From NCBI RefSeq assembly GCF_006539865.1, contig NZ_BJNV01000021.1, positions 1 through 63,695 on the forward strand: a stretch of DNA of 63,695 bases, read 5' to 3'. The DNA is from Zoogloea ramigera. Its GTDB lineage: Bacteria; Pseudomonadota; Gammaproteobacteria; Burkholderiales; Rhodocyclaceae. Under the pieces are notes generated by a model. That model did not search any database, was not told the DNA's origin, and saw nothing but the letters and a program-made list of their open reading frames with translations. Both the position numbers and the translations under genes were made by a program. Position 1 is the stretch's first letter, and each line of letters starts with the position of its first letter. Shown piece after piece: positions 43,994 through 46,324 of the stretch.

Positions 43994-45082
43994 TCATCCA
44001 CCGATGTAGGACATCTCGATCTTGCGCAGCGCGGCGGTCTCGGCCGTGCGGATCTCGGAGTAGCGGTCACCCCGCTGCTGCCACAGGCGGCCGATCACCG
44101 CCGACAGCTCGGCGTCGCTGCGGCCCTGGCGGAGCAGGGTCTGCAGGTCGTGGCCTTGCTGGGCGAACAGGCAGGTGTACAGGCTGCCCTCGGTGGACAG
44201 GCGGGCGCGGGTGCAGGTGGAGCAGAAGGCCTGGGTGACCGACGAAATCACGCCGATTTCGCCGCCGCCGTCTGTGTAGCGCCAGCGCTCGGCCACCTCG
44301 CCCGGATAATTGGGGTCGATGGCTTCGAGGGGTAAGGCTTCGTGGATGCGCCGCACCACCTCGGCCGAGGGCACCACATCGTCCATGCGCCAGCCGTTGG
44401 AGCTGCCGACGTCCATGAACTCGATGAAGCGCAGGATGTGGCCGCTGCCGCGGAAATGGCGGGCCATGGGGATGATCTCGTGGTCGTTGAGGCCACGCTT
44501 GACGACCATGTTCACCTTGAGCGGCGCGAGGCCGGCGGCTTCGGCGGCGGCGATGCCGGCCAGCACGTCGGAGACCGGCACGTCCATGTCGTTCATGGCG
44601 CGGAAGGTGGCGTCGTCGAGGGAGTCGAGGCTGACCGTGACCCGGGCCAGCCCGGCGGCCTTGAGGGCGGCGGCCTTCTTGGGCAGTAGCACGCCGTTGG
44701 TGGTGAGGGTCACCTCCATGCCGGGGATCTCGGCGAGGCTGGCGACCAGGCGTTCGAGGTTGCGGCGCAGCAGCGGCTCGCCGCCGGTGAGGCGGATCTT
44801 GCTGACGCCGTGGGCGGCAAAGATGCGCGCGAGGCGGGTGATCTCCTCGAAGCTCAGCAGGGATTGCCGCGGCAGGAAGCGGTAGTCGTCGTTGAACACC
44901 GCCTTGGGCATGCAATACACGCAGCGGAAGTTGCAGCGGTCGGTGACCGAGATGCGCAGATCCTTGACCGCCCGGCCACGGCTGTCCACCAGCCGGCCGC
45001 TGGGGGGCGGGAGTTCGGCCGGGACCACCGGCTGCTGCCGGAGCTGACGCTCGTCGGCGAGGGGAATGACTTTCTGGTTCAT
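43994..45082 (-). CDS. moaA: GTP 3',8-cyclase
   Basis: A 362-residue radical SAM enzyme beginning molybdopterin synthesis. The first cluster site is CNFRCVYC; the second, C-terminal one is [10 protein letters not shown] with LYTCLFAQ. The protein ends in the functional Gly-Gly (SYIGG). [14 protein letters not shown] is the SAM-contacting segment. It heads the moaA-mobA-moeA operon. No Moco riboswitch was recognised in the upstream 220 bases. Confidence 0.97.
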
Positions 45083-45310
45083 CGTCTCGGGGAGACTGAA
45101 GCTGGGAGCGTTGTTATACGCCCTCTGGCGGCACGGGAACCTTGTTCCGGGGCAAGTGCGGTGGGAAGTCGGTTGAAACGAATCGTTGAAAATTATGGCG
45201 GGCCGGCGGGCGCAGCGCAATCGCCGGGGCGATCCGCACGGCTGTCGGACTTGGCGATGTGGCTGGAGGCCTGGCCCCGGAATATGCTGCGGGATCACGC
45301 GGCCGGCGCC
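45083..45310. other. Upstream region of moaA
   Basis: About 230 bases without a gene. It should contain the moaA promoter, but no -35/-10 pair stands out. Short open frames here have no ribosome-binding site. The region ends at the MITE target duplication. Confidence 0.5.
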
Positions 45311-45368
45311 AATGAAAAGGCTCTGTCACCGTTATCTGTGGAAATACACCAACCCGGGGATGCTCCCT

Positions 45369-45388
45369 GTAGGTGCGAGCTTGCTCGC
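45369..45388 (+). repeat. REP-like palindrome, left
   Basis: GTAGGTGCGAGCTTGCTCGC, containing the perfect palindrome TGCGAGCTTGCTCGCA (45374-45389). It is nearly identical to Pseudomonas-type REP sequences and matches its partner at 19 of 20 positions. Confidence 0.85.
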
Positions 45389-45433
45389 ACAGCGCGGGTT
45401 GAAGAGCGCGTAATCCTTGTTTCGCCTCCGCGG

Positions 45434-45453
45434 GCGAGCAAGCTCGCCCCTAC
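45434..45453 (-). repeat. REP-like palindrome, right
   Basis: On the minus strand GTAGGGGCGAGCTTGCTCGC, the inverted partner of 45369-45388. The pair forms a BIME-like unit 45 bases apart, within the MITE. No RAYT transposase gene is visible nearby. Confidence 0.85.
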
Positions 45454-45525
45454 ACGTTGTGCCAGCAATGCGGCCTGGGCACGGGCTTTCAAAAGACTCC
45501 ACAGGTAACGGTGACATAGCCAATG

Positions 45526-45557
45526 AAAAAGCCCGGAGGGCTTGCGCCGTTCCGGGC
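45526..45557 (-). terminator. pilA terminator, T-run shared with the MITE target duplication
   Basis: On the minus strand GCCCGGA (45551-45557) is followed by a loop, then TCCGGGC (45531-45537) and five T's (45526-45530). The T-run overlaps the 8-bp target duplication of the MITE, so the element inserted exactly at the terminator end. Confidence 0.8.
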
Positions 45558-45599
45558 CTTGATCACGCGGTCGCCATGCGGCGACCGGGTGCATGGGAA

Positions 45600-46046
45600 T
45601 TAGCAGATCGGGGGGCTGGCCGTCTTGCAGGAGCCCGTCTTTTCCCAGGTGATCGAAGCCGCACCCGCAGTGGCAGTCGGGGTCAGAATGTAGGTTTCGC
45701 CGCCCAGGCCGCCGGTGGCGATTGCGGTGGCGGTGATTATGCCGTTCTTGACGGCAAGGGTAGCGACGCTGCCGACCCCAGACCCTGCAGCGATGTCCGC
45801 AGGGATCGACCAGCTGCCGTCAGCGCCCTTTGCGCCGCCGTCGCAGCCCGTCGCGCCGTTGTTGTTCTGGATGCAAAGCTCAACGGCAGACTTGTAACCG
45901 CCCGTCTGGGAGATGAGGTCCGAGAACTTCGCCTTACGCTGGAACTGCTGGTACTGGGGCACGGCGACCGCGGCCAGGATGCCGATGATGGCAACGACGA
46001 TCATGAGTTCGATCAGGGTAAAACCGGCTTGCTTTCTCTTTTGCAT
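45600..46046 (-). CDS. pilA: Type IV major pilin
   Basis: A 148-residue prepilin. A short basic leader MQKRKQAG precedes the cleavage site and the class III motif [20 protein letters not shown] with the conserved Glu5. The C-terminus has a disulfide loop C-KTASPPI-C, and a second Cys pair ([11 protein letters not shown]) lies mid-protein. This matches type IVa major pilins of betaproteobacteria. Transcription starts from a sigma-54 promoter at 46103-46118, as expected for PilS/PilR control. The gene is single, ended by a terminator that now carries a MITE at its tail. Confidence 0.95.
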
Positions 46047-46102
46047 GAGATTCTCCGTTTGGTTGGATGACGAACGGGATTTGGACCCGACGGGTTGTCC
46101 AA

Positions 46103-46118
46103 TGCAATCGGCGTGCCA
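46103..46118 (-). promoter_or_regulatory. Sigma-54 promoter of pilA
   Basis: On the minus strand TGGCAC-GCCGA-TTGCA, a perfect -24/-12 match with the GG and GC at the right spacing, 57 bases upstream of the pilA ATG. PilR is the expected activator; its site was not located. Confidence 0.93.
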
Positions 46119-46324
46119 GAAATCGAACTAAATTGAAAATCGCTTGTAATACAGCAGCCTGGATTTCTTTCTTGAGCGGGTTTCGATCCGCCGGGCACGG
46201 CAGCAGCGTCAGATAGTGACAATTTTCGGCAGTCCGTCTGACAAAATCGGGCAGAACGAATCGCGGGTGGGCCTTGTCTCCGCTACATGGGCCACCGATC
46301 TGGCCGGGAATGGAGGATGGATTC

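Follow-up and report, generated by a model that had tools for sequence, protein, structure and literature searches.

A REPIN-carrying MITE with IS1595-type ends in the pilin terminator of Zoogloea ramigera

Group IIC introns and Tn7 insert at or beside intrinsic terminators, as does the Zoogloea element described here, although the enzymes are unrelated and in the present case the T-tract itself is duplicated. For members of the IS1595 family, the accessible portions of the literature give 8-bp target duplications as usual (PMC8101967), AT-rich 8-bp repeats for ISApl4 (PMC12561309), and, in Beta- and Gammaproteobacteria, an overrepresentation both between genes and at distances of 500-550 bp to the nearest gene (PMC9208149). 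For a MITE containing a GTAG REP there is a precedent in Coxiella (PMC5896051; also the review PMC10969869, both as far as accessible), and this QMITE2, which is 150-190 bp long, has TIRs, 7-11 nt repeats and a GTAG REP and sits mostly at 3' untranslated or intergenic sites (PMC5896051), resembles our element in these respects. REPINs are dispersed and consist of two inverted GTAG-headed REPs (accessible text of PMC3116915, PMC3733652 and PMC3686654), as does the cargo of our element. Terminator targeting is not named for IS1595 in the accessible text of PMC9208149, neither IS1595 nor terminators are named in that of PMC3189936, and IS1595 has no occurrence in the main text of the QMITE2 paper (PMC5896051). 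A literature search over partly accessible sources, with most subscription journals outside its reach, found neither a report of terminator targeting by IS1595 nor one of an IS1595 MITE that contains a complete REPIN.

The window, by which we mean the whole 63,695-nt stretch of DNA analysed, belongs to Zoogloea genome G000 and holds a non-coding element of 203 bp (45319-45521) in the terminator of a pilin gene. Like the IS1595 insertion sequences annotated on plasmids as ISAchd1, ISOar1 and ISAma5, the group to which this element belongs makes 8-bp AT-rich duplications, and the element shares its ends with an IS whose transposase fits IS1595 models and an IS1/IS1595 zinc-binding domain model; unlike these ISs, it is 203 bp long, lacks a transposase and has arms past the TIR that are dissimilar to the IS. 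It departs from QMITE2 in having IS1595-type ends and in its cargo, a REP pair that is found in free form as well and whose type varies by genome, and from the described REPINs in that its REPIN rides inside a DDE-type MITE in a host genome with a partial RAYT match only. The features of the locus are as follows.

43994..45082, minus strand: moaA, the next gene downstream of the insertion (TIGR02666 above cut-off)
45311..45318, no strand: left 8-bp target duplication, AATGAAAA (sequence, direct repeat)
45319..45342, plus strand: left TIR, 24 bp (ends shared with the IS1595-family IS at L028 1063-2111)
45343..45368, plus strand: left inner arm of the MITE, non-coding (top similarity among 16 arms compared 0.77, to L040 of G008)
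45369..45453, plus strand: REPIN cargo, 85 bp, two inverted REPs (93% to free REPIN L156 in G008)
45369..45390, plus strand: REP 1 with GTAG head (REP-pattern search)
45432..45453, minus strand: REP 2 with GTAG head on the minus strand (REP-pattern search)
45454..45497, minus strand: right inner arm of the MITE, non-coding (top similarity among 16 arms compared 0.77, to L036 of G018)
45498..45521, minus strand: right TIR, 24 bp (inverted repeat, TIR pattern)
45522..45529, no strand: right 8-bp target duplication, on the minus strand TTTTCATT, within the terminator T-tract (sequence, direct repeat)
45528..45560, minus strand: hairpin of the intrinsic terminator that follows the pilin gene (inverted repeat, RNA fold, consensus match)
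45600..46046, minus strand: type IV pilin-like gene (PF07963, PF00114)

An earlier note, made from the letters alone, had described 24-bp terminal inverted repeats and an exact 8-bp duplication around a pair of REPs, and this architecture stands. The two TIRs are identical at 22 of 24 positions (92%), AATGAAAA borders the element exactly on both sides (45311-45318 and 45522-45529), and with up to 3 mismatches allowed the TIR pattern has two matches in the window, compared with none in any of 100 shuffled versions. The REPs lie at 45369-45390 (plus) and 45432-45453 (minus), so that a real REP pair is present inside a transposed MITE and two kinds of small mobile DNA are nested as proposed; the likeness to Pseudomonas REPs also holds, given that the core GCGAGCTTGCTCGC is found within the published P. 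fluorescens REP PF8 (accessible part of PMC3686654). As DNA the element has a far stronger fold than 200 shuffled sequences (z -7.1). A transposase gene is absent from the 203 bp: three ORFs of at least 80 aa overlap the element and none is contained in it. An Rfam search of 44900-46300 returned nothing at E 0.5.

Combining these data with the comparisons set out below, we suggest, with a probability of roughly 80%, that the element is a 203-bp non-autonomous MITE of the IS1595 family that sits in the pilin terminator T-tract, was likely moved in trans and has a REPIN as passenger. In this model, the MITE would have jumped into the T-tract, duplicating 8 bp, and would most likely have been moved by the transposase of an IS1595-family IS of ~1.05 kb with the same 24-bp ends; the IS is found in another Zoogloea genome and its action in trans would account for the mobility. 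The REPIN of ~85 bp would have been carried as a passenger; within the window MITE it may have been replaced by recombination or gene conversion, and in other copies, above all those of G007, the cargo appears to have spread with its MITE. An insertion just after the hairpin would keep hairpin and T-tract so that such sites would be harmless. The position would reflect a terminator preference of the transposase or else the superior survival of insertions of this kind.

That the T-run of the pilin terminator was the target, as first proposed from the sequence, is borne out by RNA folding, in which the terminator forms on the minus strand a strong hairpin running into TTTTTCATT, and by the pilin domains PF07963 and PF00114. 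A simple consensus scan also detects this terminator, with a count of 1 against a shuffle mean of 1.2 that is not above chance. Among 24 pilin loci compared, each only a few kb long so that a more distant moaA would escape notice, the pilin gene stands beside moaA in three: the window's own (L113), L116 of G018 and L120 of G008. In both sister species the site is empty, with AACGACAA in L116 and AACGAAAA in L120 directly before the same terminator (BLAST, direct inspection), and neither orthologous pilin-moaA locus has a TIR (best 7 mismatches). These empty orthologous sites, which the earlier note had named as a check, demonstrate a jump into the pilin terminator T-tract with duplication of 8 bp. 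The pilin-moaA spacer of L120 bears a different insertion elsewhere. From the ORF list and by eye, this spacer has an apparent PIN-domain toxin/antitoxin pair at ~579-1200 on the minus strand, which is absent from the corresponding spacer of the window.

Across the family of copies, target duplications are 84% AT against a background of 36%. The association with terminators could accordingly reflect AT-rich targeting together with loss of insertions elsewhere, that is, survivorship; the AT-rich repeats of ISApl4 (PMC12561309, in its accessible part) are in line with this reading, as is the finding that 15-35% of the non-coding Zoogloea octamers containing 5-7 T are next to a hairpin in any case. 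Against it, the enrichment remains when T-rich duplications abutting a hairpin (stem of at least 6, loop of 3-9) are compared with non-coding octamers of the same genus and equal T count, the non-coding regions being taken from a simple GC-by-codon-position gene finder and not from curated annotation. In Zoogloea 14 of 26 T-rich sides are at hairpins (expected 5.76, P 2.6e-4) and 12 have no hairpin contact; for two-sided elements the count is 8/10 (P 2.8e-5) against an expectation of 2.22 that is somewhat low because the Zoogloea rate for TTTTTTTT is 0, from 2 octamers. Massilia gave 12 of 14 T-rich sides at hairpins (expected 4.34, P 7e-6), and the subset obtained after the idea had formed gave 10 of 12 (expected 3.87, P 1.1e-4). 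The Massilia background consisted of 400 kb of other Massilia sequence, which replaced a small one that held the insertions themselves (rates 0.22-0.60; the result would be weak). Broader controls were discarded as too lenient (two-sided 10/19 against 2.05 expected, 2.16 in another run; single-sided 6/35 against 1.66). By the strict rule, terminator association was found in none of four Aromatoleum insertions (L090, L092, L102, L096/L196) and not in the one from Thauera (L101).

The samples for terminator association are small, and the matched test covers the rows with a visible T-rich side, leaving aside 16 of 42 Zoogloea and 9 of 23 Massilia list rows (among the latter L089 repeats L185 and L109 repeats L183) as well as the insertions in Aromatoleum, in Thauera and in two further MAGs (L100, L106), none of which was scored as a terminator site. 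Relatives of the window element are often located in terminators; target choice and selective survival are inseparable here, and we give survivorship somewhat less than an even chance. A transposon group favouring terminator T-tracts, if true, would explain the harmless build-up of its copies.

The REPIN is a regular part of these MITEs. REP-like sequence, partly mutated, lies in the middle of all 13 aligned elements, and REP sequence (up to 2 mismatches, within 226 bp) is found inward of 31/36 non-IS TIR ends, outward of 1/34 and inward of 0/5 IS ends. Counted per element, 23 of 27 distinct non-IS elements have a REP, the exceptions being L040, L070, L075 and L078, of which L078 apparently holds a REP interrupted by another repeat; in these counts elements with identical first 40 inner bases were taken once, and ends with fewer than 120 inner bases (L062, L079, IS ends at contig edges) were set aside. 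The REP core differs by genome: that of the window is GAGCTTGCTC, G021 has mostly GACTTCAGTC, and G007 has both GAACTTGTTC and GAATTCATTC.

Such variation of REP core and spacer types between and within genomes would be expected if a RAYT had inserted REPINs repeatedly and independently into empty MITEs at a favoured internal site. The variable distance from TIR to REP, the G007 copy L035, whose 67-bp REPIN is closest to a free one, and the presence of RAYT genes in the genus point the same way; however, the REPIN is central throughout and no clear empty MITE exists among the 27, as the four exceptions appear by eye to be decayed, interrupted or doubtful. We consider repeated insertion unlikely, though with enough in its favour to be kept in view.

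The proposed check for a RAYT gene had a divided outcome. In the genus the genes are present, with matches to NF047646 in 12/23 genomes at E 0.001, of which 9/23 exceed the cut-off, and matches to PF01797 in 9/23; as in described REPIN systems, a RAYT gene stands between REPs in G021 (L145 322-753). In G000, NF047646 gives a single match, partial in that it covers positions 1-59 of 146, with 38.5 bits against a cut-off of 80, and the PF01797 search of this genome gave no RAYT. The partial match, at G000:C4:104060-104233, lies within an open frame of 295 aa. MITE and REPIN both look orphaned in this draft genome, and a DDE-type MITE that regularly carries REPINs would be another route for REP persistence in genomes without an intact RAYT.

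Returning to the passenger of the window MITE, we find a similarity of 0.93 between its REPIN and a free one in a sister species (L156, G008), compared with at most 0.72 for other MITE-borne REPINs. The arms nearest to those of the window include the ones of G008 and G018 MITEs (L036, L037, L040, L074; 0.70-0.77), and the REPINs of the three that were compared (L036, L037, L074) reach only 0.61-0.68 to the window REPIN. Given that the window REPIN is far closer to a free one than to MITE-borne ones, it probably entered this MITE from the free pool in place of an earlier REPIN, through recombination or gene conversion. Of 20 MITE-borne REPINs (17 and 3 decayed), 7 have a free REPIN as closest relative and 11 a MITE-borne one, the other 2 being ties; the free REPINs sampled are only part of the pool, and this mixed count suggests that exchange, likely in the window element, is not general. 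Six of the 11 REPINs with a MITE-borne nearest relative are G007 copies; their mutual similarity of 0.92-0.95 indicates that there the MITE spread together with its cargo. A bolder model is a partnership of two enzymes. RAYT would spread the REPINs inside a genome, IS1595-type MITEs would carry them into terminator T-tracts, and one REPIN could replace another within the MITE, which would thereby serve as lasting carrier for whichever REPIN family is present in the genome; the T-tracts of intrinsic terminators would be targets that the IS1595 subgroup having these ends recognises actively. We regard this model as speculative and rather unlikely.

REPINs are also abundant outside MITEs. The REP pattern has 34 matches in G000 (14 forward, 20 reverse; reversed-pattern control 0), and of 45 places in 43 loci that were first taken as free, 41 have no TIR at the limits used, three have decayed TIRs (L152, L172, L174) and in L147 one side is doubtful; with shuffled flanks, one TIR side as good turns up in 11/450. 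Because of this abundance, we conclude that REPIN and MITE are separate mobile units. Alternatively, REP-bearing MITEs would be the source and free REPINs would be MITEs without their ends, as proposed for Coxiella QMITE2, small copies of which are essentially REP elements (accessible part of PMC5896051). The build of 84-88 bp common to MITE-borne and many free REPINs, and the three places with decayed TIRs along with L147, are compatible with such an origin, but the 41 places without TIR speak against it, as do genomes rich in REP matches and without a TIR at up to 2 mismatches (G010 with 138, G012 with 131, G017 with 108; G003 has 189 and 1 TIR), and we rate it as quite unlikely. The high flank scores of L140 and L145 probably stem from another repeat common with L031, core words of which are in both.

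The family assignment rests on a partner IS. In Zoogloea genome G004 an IS of 1,049 bp (L028 1063-2111) has ends as in the element (0 and 0-1 mismatches to the TIR pattern), an 8-bp duplication and a gene of 321 aa, whose product belongs to the IS1595 family (PF12762; NF033547 with 194 bits, cut-off 75). IS elements with this type of ends occur in Zoogloea, Aromatoleum, Thauera and Massilia, and L028's is the protein among them that was scanned for family. In PLSDB 58 plasmid records match it at 1e-30, all at identity below 60%; among the matches listed (30 of 58), 24 are annotated and 21 of these name IS1595. ISL3 elements have an 8-bp duplication and GG-starting ends. An ISL3-family MITE, the assignment made in the earlier note from the ends and the duplication, would be compatible with both features as well but is scarcely credible, being contradicted by the IS1595-family transposase between the same type of ends and by the naming of the plasmid matches; ISL3 was dropped on the family of this partner transposase.

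Past the TIR, the MITE shares little with the L028 IS (local scores of 12-19, compared with 106-232 for IS-classed ends and 57 for L079, an IS end by eye), and descent of the MITE from that IS is a candidate only. A transposase of the L028 type has 0 matches in the 207-contig draft G000; present mobility of the window element is unsupported, and a transposase partner in the same genome is not required for past mobility.

Relatives with these ends are present in other genomes of the genus, as the copy search suggested at the outset has now revealed. The TIR pattern is found in 9/23 genomes of the genus, the own one included, at up to 2 mismatches, and in 9/395 genomes of the family at up to 1 mismatch; outside Zoogloea it matches in Aromatoleum, Thauera, Massilia and two other MAGs. 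The 8-bp duplication is exact in many other copies and has 1-2 mismatches in others. In G000 the window copy is alone at up to 3 mismatches, and there are two decayed relatives with REPINs (L172 178-419 in G000:C5 and L174 149-397 in G000:C97). A search of this genome with the whole 219 bp gave no second near-identical copy, the 14 other matches being to the REPIN part, and in the genus the sole other near-full-length match is 69% identical (G007:C159).

Several of the copies show features of their own. The decayed MITE of L172 stands after a hairpin and a T run. L032 of G007:C159 holds at 586-803 a MITE copy within a REP-like palindrome, GGGGCGAATTCATTCGCCCC, the middle of which is the 8-bp duplication. 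Two MITE copies (L031 748-1122 and L078 from 155 onward, G021) have another repeat, of the GTCGGGTTAGCGCAGCGTAACCCGAC type, nested in them, apparently inside the REP in one case. The flanks of L036 (G018, 684) and L037 (G008, 614) are alike, which suggests one old MITE insertion common to two species, and the two are not counted as independent. Finally, the arms at the two ends of the MITE in L038 of G021 (491-694) are of one kind, as would result from recombination between two copies through the REPIN.
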